Shown here: in pieces, positions 2,565 through 6,908 of the stretch
How the letters are laid out: each line of letters opens with the position of its first letter
How positions within the stretch are numbered: position 1 is the stretch's first letter
The notes under the pieces: generated by a model
Told to the model about the DNA's origin: nothing
The model's database searches: none
What the model saw: the letters and a program-made list of their open reading frames with translations, nothing else
Source of the DNA: Thiobacillus sp.
Lineage (GTDB): Bacteria; Pseudomonadota; Gammaproteobacteria; Burkholderiales; Thiobacillaceae
Length of the DNA stretch: 13,621 nucleotides
NCBI GenBank assembly: GCA_020217265.1
Contig: JAIWOS010000034.1
Location: 1-13,621, forward strand
Direction: 5' to 3'
Position numbers and translations under genes: made by a program

Positions 2565-2947
2565 ACGTCCTGCTCGACACCCACGTGGCCCTGTGGGCCA
2601 TTACAGACAGCCCCAGGCTGCCCGGCCGGGCCCGCGAGATGATTGAATCGCCCAGATCAACGGTGTGGATCAGCGCGGCCAGCCTCTGGGAAATCGCCAT
2701 CAAACATGGCCTGGGGCGGGGTGAAATGCCGGTTTCCAGCCAGGAGGCGCTGCGTTATTTCCAGGAATCCGGCTACCGGTTCTTGCCCATCGAGCCCGAG
2801 CACACCGTCGCCATCGAGGATCTGCCGCCGCACCACGCCGATCCGTTCGATCGTATCCTCGTGGCCCAGGCGCTGGTCGAACCGATGCGGCTGATCACGC
2901 ACGATCAGGCAGTCGCGCGCTACAGCGACACCATCATCGTGGTTTGA
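2561..2947 (+). CDS. VapC-like toxin, PIN-domain ribonuclease (Phd partner)
   Basis: A 128-residue PIN protein of the branch commonly paired with Phd-type antitoxins. The motifs are MNVLLDTHVALWAI (Asp6), SAASLWEIAIKHGLGR (Glu44), HHADPFDRILVAQA (Asp94/Asp97) and LITHDQAVARY (Asp115), so the metal-binding acidic residues are complete. The start is the rare codon TTG at 2561, forced by the N-terminal family motif and overlapping the antitoxin stop. Coupled, inefficient translation would keep toxin below antitoxin. Predicted activity is RNA cleavage causing growth arrest; the target cannot be read from sequence. It differs clearly from the VapC at 910-1278, so the two modules are not a recent duplication. 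Confidence 0.88.
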   Translation: MNVLLDTHVALWAITDSPRLPGRAREMIESPRSTVWISAASLWEIAIKHGLGRGEMPVSSQEALRYFQESGYRFLPIEPEHTVAIEDLPPHHADPFDRILVAQALVEPMRLITHDQAVARYSDTIIVV

Positions 2948-2987
2948 TGTCCGCTGTGCTCCGCGCACAGAAGACACAGAAGAAAGG

Positions 2988-3015
2988 CGGCCTCGTCCTG
3001 CGGCCGGTTGTTTTT
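2988..3015 (+). terminator. Weak candidate terminator after the phd-vapC operon
   Basis: A 5-bp stem CGGCC (2988-2992) and GGCCG (3002-3006) with a 9-nt loop is followed by GTTGTTTTT (3007-3015). The stem is short, so efficiency is doubtful, but it is the only T-tailed hairpin after the toxin gene. Confidence 0.35.
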
Positions 3016-3111
3016 CACACGGCGGGACACTTGGCCCCCCGAGCTGCAATCAGGCACGCTGCCCCTTGGCCGACGGGGAATCCTTGTGCTGATGCATGAC
3101 GCCGCCTCCGG

Positions 3112-3169
3112 GTGTTGTCCAGCTGCAACAAAACAACACTTTCACCCCGGTTGTGGCGAAAAAAACAAC
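3112..3169. promoter_or_regulatory. Array of GTTGT/ACAAC inverted half-sites upstream of the porin
   Basis: GTGTTGT (3112-3118) pairs with ACAACAC (3133-3139), a perfect 7-bp inverted repeat. A second pair, GTTGT (3150-3154) and ACAAC (3165-3169), follows. The four half-sites lie roughly 45-100 bp upstream of the likely porin transcript start, the usual place for activator or repressor binding. The regulator is unknown. Confidence 0.4.
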
Positions 3170-3177
3170 GGTTTTGC

Positions 3178-3205
3178 TTGTCGAGGACGCCGGGGTCTGG
3201 ATAAT
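3178..3205 (+). promoter_or_regulatory. Candidate porin promoter
   Basis: TTGTCG (3178-3183) and GATAAT (3200-3205) are spaced by 16 bp, giving a start near 3212 and a leader of about 80 nt. An alternative -35, TTGCTT at 3174, is too far away at 20 bp. The leader contains a 14-bp palindrome AGCTCTGCAGAGCT (3237-3250), which can fold as a small hairpin. Confidence 0.5.
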
Positions 3206-3294
3206 CGGCCCTGTCCTCAAGCAATCTTGCCCGGACAGCTCTGCAGAGCTCCAAACCAACAAGGTTTAATTTTTTACTTTCTTAGGAGAAAGCA

Positions 3295-4380
3295 ATGAAA
3301 AAATCCCTGATCGCCCTGGCCGTCGCCGGCGCCGTCTCCGCCCCCGCGTTCGCTGCCACCAGCAACGTCGACATCTACGGCCAGCTGACCCTGTCGTACG
3401 ACTACATCAACACCGACACCAACGTGGTTGGCGCTGACAAGAAACTGTCGCGCATCTCGTCCAACTCCAGCCGCATCGGCTTCAAGGGTTCGGAAGACCT
3501 GGGCGGCGGCCTGGCTGCCATCTGGCAGATCGAGAACCAGCTCGACATGGACAACGGCACCAACAACCTGACCGGCGGCACCCTGGGCGCCGGCGGCTTC
3601 TCCACCGCCATGCGCAACACCTTTGTCGGCCTGAAGAGCAACAGCTTCGGCACCGTGCTGCTCGGTAAGCACGACACCCCGTACAAGCTCGCCACTGGCA
3701 AGCTGGACATCTTCGCTGACACCCTGGGCGACTACAACAACATCGTCGGCAACGTCAACGGCAGCAACAACTTCGACCTGCGCCCGGGCAACGTCGCCGC
3801 CTACATCACCCCCACCTTCTCCGGTCTGCACGGCGCCATCGCTTACGTGGCCGGCAACGAAGTGGGTAACGGCACCGCTCCGAACCAGAGCGCCTGGTCC
3901 GCCATGGGCATGTACGACAACGGCCCGCTGTTCGCCTCGCTGGCTTACGAAAAGCACAACAACCTCAACGCCACGGGTGACGATCGTGACGCCTGGAAAG
4001 CCGGCGTGGGCTATAAGTTCGGCGACGCTCAACTCGGCCTGATCTATGAAGACGCGGAAACCGTCCTCGGCGCGAACAACGTCAAGTCCCGCAAGGCCTG
4101 GTACCTGAACGGCCAGTACACGATGGGTGCTATCGTCCTGAAGGCCGCCTACGGCCGCGCTGGCGACGTCAAGACCCAGGCTGACACCTCGGCCCGTACC
4201 TTCGACCTGGGCGCGGACTACAACCTGTCCAAGCGCACCAAGATGTACGCCGTGTACCAGAAGACCAACAACGACACCAATGGCACCTACGGTCTGGGCG
4301 CTGGCCAGGGTTCGGCCCTCACCCCGGGCGCGGGCGAGGATCCTTCGGCCTTCTCGATCGGCGTGCGCCACACCTTCTAA
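3295..4380 (+). CDS. Gram-negative trimeric porin (neisserial/Burkholderiales type)
   Basis: A 361-residue outer-membrane porin. Residues 1-20 (MKKSLIALAVAGAVSAPAFA) form a clear signal peptide ending in an AFA cleavage site. The mature protein begins ATSNVDIYGQLTLSYDY, the usual first beta strand. SRIGFKGSEDLGGGLAAIWQIE and FVGLKSNSFGTVLLGKHDTPYK are conserved porin segments, and the protein ends in a terminal phenylalanine (VRHTF) that directs assembly by the BAM complex. It should form 16-stranded beta barrels in trimers that let small solutes cross the outer membrane. Ribosome site AGGAG (3284-3288) is well placed. Codons favour C-ending choices strongly, as in highly expressed genes. A strong terminator follows 38 bp after the stop. 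Substrate preference cannot be assigned. Confidence 0.93.
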   Translation: MKKSLIALAVAGAVSAPAFAATSNVDIYGQLTLSYDYINTDTNVVGADKKLSRISSNSSRIGFKGSEDLGGGLAAIWQIENQLDMDNGTNNLTGGTLGAGGFSTAMRNTFVGLKSNSFGTVLLGKHDTPYKLATGKLDIFADTLGDYNNIVGNVNGSNNFDLRPGNVAAYITPTFSGLHGAIAYVAGNEVGNGTAPNQSAWSAMGMYDNGPLFASLAYEKHNNLNATGDDRDAWKAGVGYKFGDAQLGLIYEDAETVLGANNVKSRKAWYLNGQYTMGAIVLKAAYGRAGDVKTQADTSARTFDLGADYNLSKRTKMYAVYQKTNNDTNGTYGLGAGQGSALTPGAGEDPSAFSIGVRHTF

Positions 4381-4387
4381 TTCAAGG

Positions 4388-4401
4388 CTGGCGCAAGCCA
4401 G
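4388..4401 (+). other. GNRA-tetraloop hairpin in porin 3' UTR
   Basis: CTGGC-gcaa-GCCAG forms a perfect 5-bp stem closed by a GCAA tetraloop, eight bases after the porin stop and just before the terminator hairpin. A role in protecting the mRNA end is inferred. Confidence 0.5.
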
Positions 4402-4418
4402 TTGAGATTGGATGTGAA

Positions 4419-4446
4419 ACGGGCAGCTTCGGCTGCCCGTTTTTTT
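4419..4446 (+). terminator. Strong intrinsic terminator of the porin gene (UUCG loop)
   Basis: A 9-bp perfect stem ACGGGCAGC/GCTGCCCGT closes on a TTCG tetraloop with a C-G closing pair, a very stable fold, followed by seven T residues (4440-4446). Confidence 0.95.
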
Positions 4447-4513
4447 ATGCCGCTCATGGCACAATGGGATTGATGTTCAGCACAAGATTCCAGCGCGACA
4501 TTGTGATGACGTG

Positions 4514-4731
4514 ATGACCAGCCACGCGCAACTGCGCATGGATGCTCGTGGATTCGACGAAACCAGTTGCTGGAGATCATCGAATCAGGCGAGTTGCGAT
4601 ATCGCGATGCCACCTACCTGTGGGCTTACAAGGCTTTCAGCGAACGGGCGGACAATCTGCTGTGCGCGGTTCTGGTGCTGGAAGACAGTCTGATCGTGAA
4701 AACCGTGATGCATCATTTCGAGGCGACATAG
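4514..4731 (+). pseudogene. DUF4258-like gene broken by a one-base frameshift
   Basis: From ATG 4514 one frame encodes MTSHAQLRMDARGFDET, the usual start of DUF4258 proteins (HAxxRMxxRG). The frame then runs into unrelated sequence and stops near 4693. From CAG at 4564 the adjacent frame continues the family pattern: QLLEIIESGELRYRD, then AYKAFSERADNLLCAVLVLE and LIVKTVMHHF, to TAG at 4729-4731. One base appears to be missing near 4562-4566 (ACCAG where ACCCAG would restore a 73-residue protein). No start codon with a ribosome site serves the second frame. DUF4258 proteins often sit beside small antitoxin-like genes and are suspected toxins; that is inference. A real mutation, a sequencing error or frameshifting are all possible. 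The heptamer here is not a classical slippery site. Confidence 0.72.
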
Positions 4732-4741
4732 GAGCAAGGCA

Positions 4742-4936
4742 ATGCATACGACCTATTACGACGACGACATCTTGGTGATTCGCCTGTCGGACAAACCCAT
4801 CGTGCGTGAGGTGCCTCAAGATTGGAACACGCATGTCAGTTACACCGAGGATGGCACGACGGTGGAGATCGTGTTGCTGGAAGCGCGCGCGAATGGCGCT
4901 TATCCGTTTGAATTCAAACATGCGAGAGCCGCCTGA
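4742..4936 (+). CDS. DUF2283 small protein, probable partner of the DUF4258 gene
   Basis: A 64-residue protein with the DUF2283 pattern: YYDDDILVIRLSDKPIV at residues 5-21, then THVSYTEDGTTVEIVLLEARA. The family consists of short beta-rich proteins without known enzymatic function, frequently encoded next to DUF4258 or other toxin-like genes. An antitoxin role here is inferred from that pairing. AGGAG at 4730-4734 overlaps the stop of the preceding gene and lies seven bases before ATG 4742, showing the two were one operon. Unlike its partner it is intact, so if it is an antitoxin it may now be an orphan. A terminator follows at 5012. Confidence 0.75.
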   Translation: MHTTYYDDDILVIRLSDKPIVREVPQDWNTHVSYTEDGTTVEIVLLEARANGAYPFEFKHARAA

Positions 4937-5011
4937 CGGCGGCGTCTCTGCTTGCGCTTCCATTCGGGCACCCGGGCGTAAGCCAGGTCGAGGAGGGTGG
5001 GCGGGGATCAT

Positions 5012-5037
5012 CGGGCGGGTTTGGTCGCCCGTTTTTT
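5012..5037 (+). terminator. Intrinsic terminator after DUF2283
   Basis: CGGGCG (5012-5017) and CGCCCG (5026-5031) form a 6-bp GC stem with an 8-nt loop, followed by six T residues (5032-5037). It serves the rightward DUF4258/DUF2283 transcript. On the other strand there is no T run. Confidence 0.85.
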
Positions 5038-5061
5038 CCGCTGCATGAGGCGGCGACTGCT

Positions 5062-5478
5062 TCAGCCTTCGACAATCTCGAAATCGTGCGTGATCTCGGC
5101 CATCTTGCCGAGCATGATGCTGGCCGAGCAGTATTTTTCGGCGGAGAGCTTCACCGCCTGCTCCACCCGCTTGGGGTCGAGCGACTTGCCGGTGACGGTG
5201 AAGTGGACGTGGATCTTCGTGAACACCTTGGGGTCGGTGTCGGCGCGGGTGGCGGAAAGATCGGCCACGCAGTCGGTGATCTGCTGGCGGCTCTTGCGCA
5301 GGATCAGCACCACGTCGAAGGCGGAGCAGCCGCCCAGGCCCATGAGCAGCATTTCCATCGGCCGCACGCCGAGGTTCTTGCCGCCGGCTTCGGGCGCGCC
5401 GTCCATGACGACGCTGTGGCCGGATTCGCTCTGGCCGACGAACGAAACGCCTTCGATGAGTTTGACGCGGGCTTTCAT
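5062..5478 (-). CDS. yhfA: OsmC-family protein, YhfA-like
   Basis: A 138-residue protein closely matching the pattern of E. coli YhfA, an OsmC/Ohr superfamily member. It begins MKARVKLIEGVSFVGQSESG, contains RPMEMLLMGLGGCSAFDVV with Cys51, and LSAEKYCSASIMLGK with Cys117. Both cysteines occupy the positions of the redox pair in OsmC/Ohr peroxidases, but YhfA itself has no established substrate, so peroxide reduction is only suggested. The ATG at 5478 has GAGGAA close upstream. The gene starts 12 bp after the stop codon of a stranded copy of the ydcF 3' end (5491-5555), implying that it once followed ydcF directly in an operon. It now follows hicA. Confidence 0.9.
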   Translation of the reverse strand: MKARVKLIEGVSFVGQSESGHSVVMDGAPEAGGKNLGVRPMEMLLMGLGGCSAFDVVLILRKSRQQITDCVADLSATRADTDPKVFTKIHVHFTVTGKSLDPKRVEQAVKLSAEKYCSASIMLGKMAEITHDFEIVEG

Positions 5479-5490
5479 GATGTTCCTCGA

Positions 5491-5555
5491 TTAAAACAAC
5501 AAGCGGAGTTTGTACCACAGGATGCCCAGCCACTCGTGCAGGGCGAAGGTGCTGT
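5491..5555 (-). repeat. Stranded duplicate of the ydcF 3' end (copy 1)
   Basis: 5502-5555 is identical over 54 bp to 6161-6214. Extending to 5491 gives 65 bp with three mismatches. Read leftward it encodes STFALHEWLGILWYKLRLLF and a TAA stop, matching the C-terminus of the DUF218 protein (whose own end is SQF instead of LLF). Similarity fades beyond 5555, toward hicA. It is a gene remnant and one of the two repeats flanking hicBA. Confidence 0.9.
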
Positions 5556-5580
5556 TCCAGGCTCGGGTGACGAAACGGGC

Positions 5581-5823
5581 TCAATCAAACAAGGTGTGCA
5601 GGAGTTCGTCGCGTGTGATGCCGTGATGTGTGGCCACAACGGAAAGAATGGCGGCAAGCGTGCCAAGTTTCAGCGGGTCGTGCAGGGGTATCGTGAGGTG
5701 GTGTTCACCTCGAACCCGGCTGGTCAGGCGGAGGTGGCTGCCGGTTTGCCGGGTTGTTGCGTAGCCGAGTTTGGCAAGTCGTTTGACAAGATCGGTGCCT
5801 GTCAGGTCCCGCGGGATTTTCAT
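5581..5823 (-). CDS. hicA: HicA-family toxin (mRNA interferase)
   Basis: An 80-residue HicA/YcfA protein. Residues 8-33 (TGTDLVKRLAKLGY, then RQTGSHLRL) carry the double-stranded-RNA-binding-like fold with catalytic His30 in the GSH motif. HLTIPLHDPLKLGTLAAIL and GITRDELL complete the family pattern. HicA cleaves mRNAs independently of the ribosome and is held inactive by HicB. ATG 5823 is chosen because the family N-terminus starts there and it overlaps the hicB stop as ATGA (5820-5823). A much longer upstream reading frame is spurious. After its TGA stop the same frame stays open for 29 codons through the stranded ydcF end. Confidence 0.9.
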   Translation of the reverse strand: MKIPRDLTGTDLVKRLAKLGYATTRQTGSHLRLTSRVRGEHHLTIPLHDPLKLGTLAAILSVVATHHGITRDELLHTLFD

Positions 5824-6026
5824 GCCGCGAGAACTTCCTCGCGCGTGATGTGCAGGCGAATGACGCGAGGTGCTTCGCCCGCATCGAAATGGCAGTGAAC
5901 GGCGTCCCTGATGAGCGCATGAAGGCTCGGCATGTCCTCGGCTTCGGTGATGATGTCCTGGCCGACGCCGCGGGCGATGAACCCCCCCTCTGGCGACTCT
6001 TCGACGATGAAATGGATTTCGGTCAT
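5820..6026 (-). CDS. hicB: HicB-like antitoxin, short form
   Basis: A 68-residue protein with the HicB partial RNase H-like fold: IHFIVEESPEGGFIARGVG (residues 4-22) and DMPSLHALIRDAVHCHF (31-47). It covers only the toxin-binding domain and ends soon after, in RVIRLHITREEVLAA. The C-terminal RHH or HTH DNA-binding domain of longer HicB proteins is absent. Such short forms are common partners of HicA and are sometimes misannotated as dehydrogenase subunits. It precedes hicA with a four-base overlap. The ribosome site (AAAGGG, leftward) is embedded in the inverted repeat CAAAGG-c-CCTTTG at 6029-6041, so control may act on the mRNA or through another protein. Confidence 0.85.
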   Translation of the reverse strand: MTEIHFIVEESPEGGFIARGVGQDIITEAEDMPSLHALIRDAVHCHFDAGEAPRVIRLHITREEVLAA

Positions 6027-6028
6027 GG

Positions 6029-6041
6029 CAAAGGCCCTTTG
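6029..6041. promoter_or_regulatory. Inverted repeat covering the hicB ribosome site
   Basis: CAAAGG-C-CCTTTG, a 13-bp near-perfect dyad with a single central base, overlaps the presumed Shine-Dalgarno sequence three bases before the hicB start. The one-base centre disfavours an RNA hairpin on its own, so a DNA-binding operator or intermolecular pairing is equally possible. Function is inferred. Confidence 0.4.
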
Positions 6042-6149
6042 GAGTCAAACTGCGGTTTCAAGTATCGCCCAACTCGGGGGCGAGGTGAACCCGGGTGTGC
6101 TGGCTGTCTGACTCTGGAATGGGCTCGGATTTTGACGTTCTCCGCGCAG

Positions 6150-6214
6150 TTAAAACTGCGAGCGGAGTTTGTACCACAGGATGCCCAGCCACTCGTGCAG
6201 GGCGAAGGTGCTGT
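6150..6214 (-). repeat. ydcF 3' end, intact copy (copy 2) of the hicBA-flanking repeat
   Basis: This is the real end of the DUF218 gene, including its TAA (6150-6152). It is the 65-bp counterpart of 5491-5555, at an offset of 659 bp. The identical block is 6161-6214. Confidence 0.9.
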
Positions 6215-6908
6215 CGCGCAGACCAGCGGGACTGGGAACGAGGCCCATCACGTCGTCGAGCGCGGTGCGGGAAAACTGGATACCGGCGGGGACGACGGCG
6301 AGCCCCTGTGCTTCGAAGAGCGGCTGCGCGCGGCGCAGGTGCCAGGCGTGGGTGACGAGGGCGATGCGCGTCACGCGGTCGGTTTTCAGAAGCTGCGCGG
6401 CATGCCGGGCGTTGTCCCAGGTGGTGAGCGCGCTGTTTTCCACCCAGCGCGGCGCGATGCCGTATTCGTCCGCGAGGATGCGGCGCATGATGTCGCCTTC
6501 GGCGAGCGTGCCGCCGCCCGGTTTGCCGCCGGTGACGAGTACCGGCAGGCCGCTCGTGCGGGCGAGGTGCGCGCCGTAGCGCAGGCGTTCCAGGGTGATG
6601 GCGTTGACGGTGTCGCCGCCGTATTCGGCGGCGGCGATGCGGCGCCCGCCGCCCAGTACGACGATGGCGTCGGCGGATTGCAGCGCCTCCGGCGTGACGG
6701 GCGCGGAGATTTCGAGGCTCTTGAGCAACACGCCGCCTACCCAGGGCGTGGACAGGGCGTACAGCGCGGCGGTGGACAACAGGATCAGCGACATGGCCAG
6801 GCGGGGGTGGCGACGGTGGAGGAGCATCCCGGCGGCAAGCAGCAGAATCAGCGACAGCGGCGGCAACAGGGCGGCGGCGATGAGGTTTGTGGCGAGCCAG
6901 GCGGTCAT
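6150..6908 (-). CDS. YdcF/ElyC-type DUF218 membrane protein
   Basis: A 252-residue protein with two N-terminal membrane segments (about 8-30 and 36-54) and a DUF218 domain. That domain shows ADAIVVLGGGRR (80-90), LVTGGKPGGG (124-133), VENSALTTWDNA (156-167) and VTHAWHLRRA (185-194). This layout and length match ElyC, an E. coli envelope factor needed for normal peptidoglycan synthesis at low temperature, better than the shorter SanA or soluble YdcF. A biochemical activity is not settled for the family. The domain should lie in the periplasm. No clear ribosome site precedes ATG 6908. Its last 65 bp are duplicated at 5491-5555, on the far side of hicBA, so the original downstream partner was probably yhfA. 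Confidence 0.88.
   Translation of the reverse strand: MTAWLATNLIAAALLPPLSLILLLAAGMLLHRRHPRLAMSLILLSTAALYALSTPWVGGVLLKSLEISAPVTPEALQSADAIVVLGGGRRIAAAEYGGDTVNAITLERLRYGAHLARTSGLPVLVTGGKPGGGTLAEGDIMRRILADEYGIAPRWVENSALTTWDNARHAAQLLKTDRVTRIALVTHAWHLRRAQPLFEAQGLAVVPAGIQFSRTALDDVMGLVPSPAGLRDSTFALHEWLGILWYKLRSQF

Follow-up and report, generated by a model that had tools for sequence, protein, structure and literature searches.

In Thiobacillus sp. (GenBank assembly GCA_020217265.1), a hicBA toxin-antitoxin (TA) module is lodged between a ydcF-like gene and the osmC gene (also yhfA) of contig JAIWOS010000034.1, of which the 13,621 nucleotides (nt) analysed here are called the window in the following. 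The module is flanked by two direct copies of the ydcF 3' end, whereas the same gene junction in other genomes of the genus is free of it. Most probably (roughly 0.7 by our estimate), hicBA reached the ydcF-osmC junction by an insertion with long target duplication. The features concerned are the following, in the direction of transcription:

6150-6908, minus strand: intact ydcF-like DUF218 gene (PF02698, E 1e-29), its last 65 nt being the true repeat copy
6150-6214, minus strand: repeat copy 1 from the repeat search, the true ydcF 3' end, with the stop codon as exact boundary
5556-6149, minus strand: insert with hicBA, 594 base pairs (bp), including 123 bp ahead of hicB and 25 bp past hicA
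5820-6026, minus strand: hicB-like antitoxin gene, 68 aa, regarded as HicB-like by position, size and overlap with hicA
5581-5823, minus strand: hicA toxin gene, 80 aa (PF07927 HicA_toxin, E 8e-11), its start overlapping the hicB end
5491-5555, minus strand: repeat copy 2, the stranded ydcF 3' end, 12 nt (5479-5490) before the OsmC open reading frame (ORF)
5062-5478, minus strand: osmC/yhfA (PF02566, PRK10738); in relatives, its own 3' end occurs in duplicate on either side of other modules

The insertion site and its hicBA module

The two repeat copies match at 62 of 65 positions (95%) and start 659 bp apart. Their mismatches (5498, 5499 and 5501) are clustered beside the junction, and 5502-5555 is identical to 6161-6214 over 54 nt. 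Such a similarity is not expected by chance (self-blastn E 5e-25; about 2e-24 exact 54-mers expected), so that the duplicated 65-bp ydcF 3' end described around hicBA in an initial annotation of this DNA is confirmed. The repeat consists of conserved ydcF coding sequence, which is likewise found in relatives without the insert.

Besides the window, ydcF was located in 46 other genomes of the genus Thiobacillus, while 9 more same-genus genomes gave no match. In each of the 46, osmC starts 14-93 nt past the end of the ydcF match, compared with 674 nt in the window (in two of them osmC is cut by the contig end; junction sequences were displayed for 29). The window alone carries hicBA at this junction. 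The comparison of relatives suggested with the initial annotation therefore did not reveal a site filled throughout the genus, and the proposed entry of a small TA module at the 3' end of a gene, with restoration of that end, is borne out by a site empty in 46 of 46 relatives. As the ydcF-osmC gap measures only 14-21 nt in most of them, an insertion without duplication had almost no room. The stranded ydcF end, in turn, keeps the short spacing to osmC which the ydcF end has in relatives. Both neighbours are complete, ydcF keeping its end and osmC its leader, because the duplicated 65 bp are the 3' end of ydcF. Judged from these sequences, the ydcF-osmC junction is an insertion site with duplication of the target gene end.

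The insert itself is, by its gene layout and domain content, a small overlapping type II TA operon with a HicA toxin domain. For the hicB-like product, neither a Pfam match (even at E 5) nor an NCBIfam match was obtained. Its predicted structure (pLDDT 75) resembled TTHA1013 and a putative antitoxin as best folds, both weakly (E 0.14 each). A hicB match occurs in 7 of 56 same-genus genomes, the own genome included, and the hicB-hicA pair is kept in the loci L034-L037. Regarding the origin of the module, a plasmid source was not supported, as the DNA search of plasmids gave no match and the hicB protein matched two plasmid records at 51-52%; likewise, no phage record was matched by the hicB protein.

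Several observations were made beside hicBA homologues of the genus. In two genomes (G088 and G057), the hicB homologues share a contig with CRISPR-like arrays of about 71-nt period (L048:3253-3440 and 4290-5175; L047:17-693 and 2817-3259), and in L048 the hicB match ends at a lone copy of the array repeat, about 1 kb from the array. The hicA of G064 (L040:5743-5978) lies in two frames and is probably broken, with its hicB open. In Thiobacillus 65-29, many short near-identical repeats and a partial copy of the hicA 3' end stand beside hicBA (L234, corresponding to L035).

Gene-end duplications at other loci

The initial annotation had also recommended searching for the 659-bp unit elsewhere and for other modules bounded by copies of host gene ends. 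The first search returned the whole unit once in the own assembly, besides one weak 40-bp match. The second was productive, and such modules were found at osmC, a ROK kinase gene, nadK, engA/der and dinB. At the ROK kinase gene, nadK and engA/der, hicA has the intact gene on one side and a stranded end of it on the other.

Within Thiobacillus, osmC is a hot spot. Seven of the 46 relatives (L040-L044, L078 and L084) have an additional osmC 3' end downstream of the gene, and in 6 of these 7 the interval delimited by the osmC ends contains a TA-type module. The intervals hold the following:

L040, L041, L044, L078: DUF2283 gene and a partner ORF reading like DUF4258, without Pfam match for the partner
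L040, additionally: hicBA
L078, additionally: DUF5615 and DUF433
L042: ParE and a ribbon-helix-helix protein
L043: DUF2442 and DUF4160
L084: a gene reading like a REP-associated transposase, by eye only

The osmC modules of G064, G092 and G053 are 84-87% identical, and L040, L041 and L044 may, by their sequences, share one old event. For the stranded osmC copy of G089, the resident osmC is clearly the nearest match (219/240, compared with 191/226 to 193/234 for the next four matches listed), so that this copy was derived from the resident gene; in G076 and G092, the own osmC is likewise the best match, by a small margin. A DUF2283 module between two osmC 3' fragments also occurs away from the resident ydcF-osmC locus (G070; L139:1176-2190, beside porin-like and TPR-like genes). 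In G080, DUF2283 and ParE genes follow osmC without an osmC copy. Furthermore, at six loci (L050, L051, L053, L066, L069 and L089), mostly without a large insert, osmC is followed by short duplicates (35-59 bp) of its end or of the DNA just past it.

Beyond this locus, the survey covered 80 HicB loci of named genomes, 58 of them fully flanked, and 30 HicA loci of the class, 22 of them fully flanked. A repeat spanning the module was present in 6 of the 80 and in 8 of the 30, respectively, and in each survey four were judged to be target duplications:

L222 (HicB survey), Thiobacillus 63-78: osmC, the same locus as L040
L278 (HicB survey), uncultured Burkholderiales: 229 bp, 91%, ROK gene 3' end, stopping at the stop codon
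L299 (HicB survey), Chloroflexia: 86 bp, 95%, leader of an ORF with methyltransferase domain, not in the frame of the ORF
L252 (HicB survey), Sulfuritalea: 83 bp, located at the 5' end of a gene which we take to be mreB-like, or ahead of it
L303 (HicA survey): 98 bp, 3' end of engA/der, extending into its stop codon
L306 and L308 (HicA survey), one genus and the same gene: 38 bp, nadK 3' end, stopping at the stop codon in L306
L320 (HicA survey): 177 bp including the dinB start, i.e., a duplicated 5' end

The duplicated stretch measures 38-240 bp across the cases other than the window. For L303 and L306, the HicA domain was tested for the toxin gene alone. The empty-site evidence given above covers the ydcF-osmC locus and not L278, L299, L252, L303, L306 and L320; in the comparison made for L303 and L306, the one further genome compared from the genus of G232 stops at the gene end, and both genomes compared from the genus of G168 carry the module. 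Excluded from the strict count were L313 and L377, which are probably chromosomal integrons by repeats presumably of the attC type, the loci with REP-like or palindromic repeats (L311, L325, L400 and L234), and three unclear ones, namely L275 (57 bp, 75%), L327 (antitoxin-like gene end, repeated at a spacing of 1.6 kb) and L376 (an AT-rich intergenic repeat).

Mode of insertion and competing explanations

No integrase or transposase was found among the main genes scanned in the window or in the insert, in agreement with the initial annotation, nor was a terminal inverted repeat of at least 10 nt found at the two ends of the unit, or an attC site at the insert. When five hicBA units were aligned, they had the two genes and a little preceding DNA in common and no shared ends. 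Under an insertion with long target duplication, the module would bring neither ends nor an enzyme of its own, and joining would be accomplished by host repair or replication. A fragment might be captured at a staggered break, with fill-in over tens to hundreds of bases. Alternatively, by template switching, a replication fork would exit the gene just past the stop codon, copy the incoming hicBA and re-enter the gene upstream. Insertions that leave the neighbour intact by virtue of the duplication would be retained by selection, and recombinational loss across the repeats may be disfavoured by the toxin.

A trace of such a switch may be present at the junction itself:

6140-6167, minus strand: predicted hairpin to which the ydcF end and the first insert bases contribute (-16.3 kcal/mol, z -2.1)

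Nine of 200 shuffles were as good, and the stranded ydcF end has no predicted hairpin (z 0.2). Two of the bases that differ between the repeat copies are paired in the stem and one lies in a 2-nt bulge. The clustered changes aiding this hairpin are a weak hint of template switching. A single templated change at a strand switch would account for the mismatch cluster together with the hairpin. Chance clustering of the mismatches, or selection for a terminator, is possible as well.

Among the competing explanations, homologous integration by a single crossover (Campbell type) fares best, although we consider it unlikely. Here, a circle or transformed DNA from another strain would have carried the ydcF 3' end together with hicBA, the repeats would be scars of exchange, and modules would pop out as circles. 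A single crossover gives exactly the observed layout and is compatible with the clustered differences between the real and the stranded ydcF end. The similarity of the osmC modules in G064, G092 and G053 would permit exchange as well as common descent, and the DUF2283 module of G070, situated away from the resident osmC, fits exchange. Nevertheless, a crossover leaves the first duplication and the several unrelated target genes unexplained. We favour joining by the host over a donor circle that integrates, as none of the 46 relatives has hicBA at ydcF and could serve as donor, and as one good case, G089, has a stranded copy derived from its own gene.

The initial annotation had compared the arrangement with integrative elements and their attachment sites. 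A site-specific recombinase acting in trans, with the ydcF end as attachment site, would account for the repeat boundary, which coincides with the stop codon here, in L306 and in L278 and falls within it in L303. Apart from the missing integrase, the lack of shared unit ends and of terminal inverted repeats, together with targets and repeat lengths that vary from case to case and once involve a gene 5' end, leaves this analogy unsupported and the recombinase very improbable. At least as improbable is an assembly artefact, or a plain gene-end duplication unrelated to hicBA. The assembly of the window is indeed fragmented (231 contigs, 84.6% complete), and the short osmC-end copies in a few relatives would suit a plain duplication. 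Still, the two copies differ at three bases, their flanks differ, the one-contig relative G053 has the osmC counterpart, and the same layout recurs in unrelated genomes. Although attC-like repeats do enclose the surveyed HicA locus L313 and probably the ParE locus L377, an integron cassette is rejected here, the ydcF repeat being ordinary coding sequence that is present in relatives without the insert.

The frequency of the scar was assessed with control loci. Cold-shock genes had spanning repeats in 0 of 30 loci in the genus and in 0 of 30 in the class, and the raw HicA count differs from this control (8/30 vs. 0/30, p = 0.005, integron- and REP-like repeats included). Within the genus, DUF2283 loci gave 5 of 30, consisting of the four osmC cases already known and L139, and ParE loci gave 2 of 30, one being the osmC locus of G076 (L180) and the other an unclassed 40-bp repeat (L168). 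In 800 kb of G053, scanned in 5-kb windows with a 2.5-kb step, 26 direct repeats were recorded and, among those looked at, the osmC locus alone fits (left out were 6 rows forming one cluster near 247 kb, as well as 3 repeats above 300 nt, regarded as paralogue-like). In G053, a 117-nt direct repeat (82%) also flanks a gene reading like glyceraldehyde-phosphate dehydrogenase (L100:12326-13589; G053 172326-173589), perhaps a shared regulatory region.

Several results weigh against an insertion with long target duplication. The strict HicA count is not clearly above the control (4/30 vs. 0/30, p = 0.11), and the pooled strict count of 8/110 vs. 0/60 (p = 0.052) includes L222, which was known beforehand, and L306 and L308, which are not independent. 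Moreover, the repeats were classed by eye after being seen. Shifted windows at the same HicB loci contained spanning repeats in 3 of 70 (an unclassed one of 82 bp and two that are long and resemble paralogues), ParE loci across the class in 3 of 30 without a clear gene end, and the TA modules of E. coli K-12 in 0 of 9, with mazEF and yafNO among those tested. In G064, G053 and G055, the nearest match of the stranded osmC copy is not the own osmC, which also speaks for the crossover. The hairpin is modest, with just two of the three changed bases pairing. Finally, flanking direct repeats are absent from the three other TA-type modules of the window, which are:

656-1278: 85-aa ORF without Pfam match, followed by PIN
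2319-2947: Phd/YefM and PIN
4511-4936: small ORF and DUF2283

Altogether, the type of scar is striking, while its rate is not settled.

Relation to known mobile and operon-borne systems

Integrative elements at the 3' ends of tRNA or protein genes restore the gene end and leave a stranded end on the far side. The hicBA unit differs from them in being without an integrase and without a constant core site. Type II TA modules within operons have been described for relA-mazG, dinB-yafP and folA-apaH in the available text of a review, where the route of TA integration is called unelucidated (PMC7167474). They resemble the present case as TA pairs between housekeeping genes, at plastic loci which are empty in other strains, and differ from it in that the nine K-12 loci tested are without duplicated flanks. 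In the accessible part of a TA survey, a TA-like pair is also noted as newly inserted within operons among related strains (PMC2701414). Direct repeats around TA pairs are reported from Microcystis, where a 152-bp repeat beside an orthocaspase gene starts 14 bp past the stop codon and includes an inverted repeat (PMC7935541), and from Mycoplasma, where they were called scars of recombination by the authors (PMC8562856). Both share the TA pair between direct repeats with hicBA, whereas copied gene ends are not described in the available portions of these papers. Likewise, in the accessible full-text literature, which includes PMC4615327 and comprises few subscription journals, no report was found in which a TA module had inserted together with a duplicated end of its neighbouring gene. 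The scar hints at how TA pairs enter chromosomes. As it can be recognised from sequence, lies next to named housekeeping genes and can be compared with an empty site, it makes TA entry testable in genome collections.

Long target duplication by restriction-modification (RM) systems was reportedly found by Nobusato in 2000 and Furuta in 2010. The parts available of two papers describe RM systems whose insertion duplicates long target stretches of variable length, and also mention RM units with inverted repeats and short duplications as a different class (PMC3874152, PMC3031569). As far as these excerpts extend, the likeness comprises a small selfish gene pair without transposase, an empty site in relatives, and variable repeats of about 100 bp made from the target. 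Unlike in the RM insertions described there, a type II TA module of about 0.6 kb is carried here, and in most of the present cases the duplicated stretch takes in the end of an adjacent gene, which remains complete. The hicBA cases thus look like the long target duplication of RM systems with TA cargo instead, the enzymology being presumptive. Tentatively, and at somewhat less than even odds, we propose that TA modules, hicBA foremost, may be mobile units without ends or enzymes which enter beside many genes, with host replication or repair duplicating about 40-240 bp, and which are retained as the neighbour stays whole and the toxin disfavours loss. This would represent a general route of TA integration common to RM systems, and the scar ties TA modules to the presumed mode of movement of the latter.
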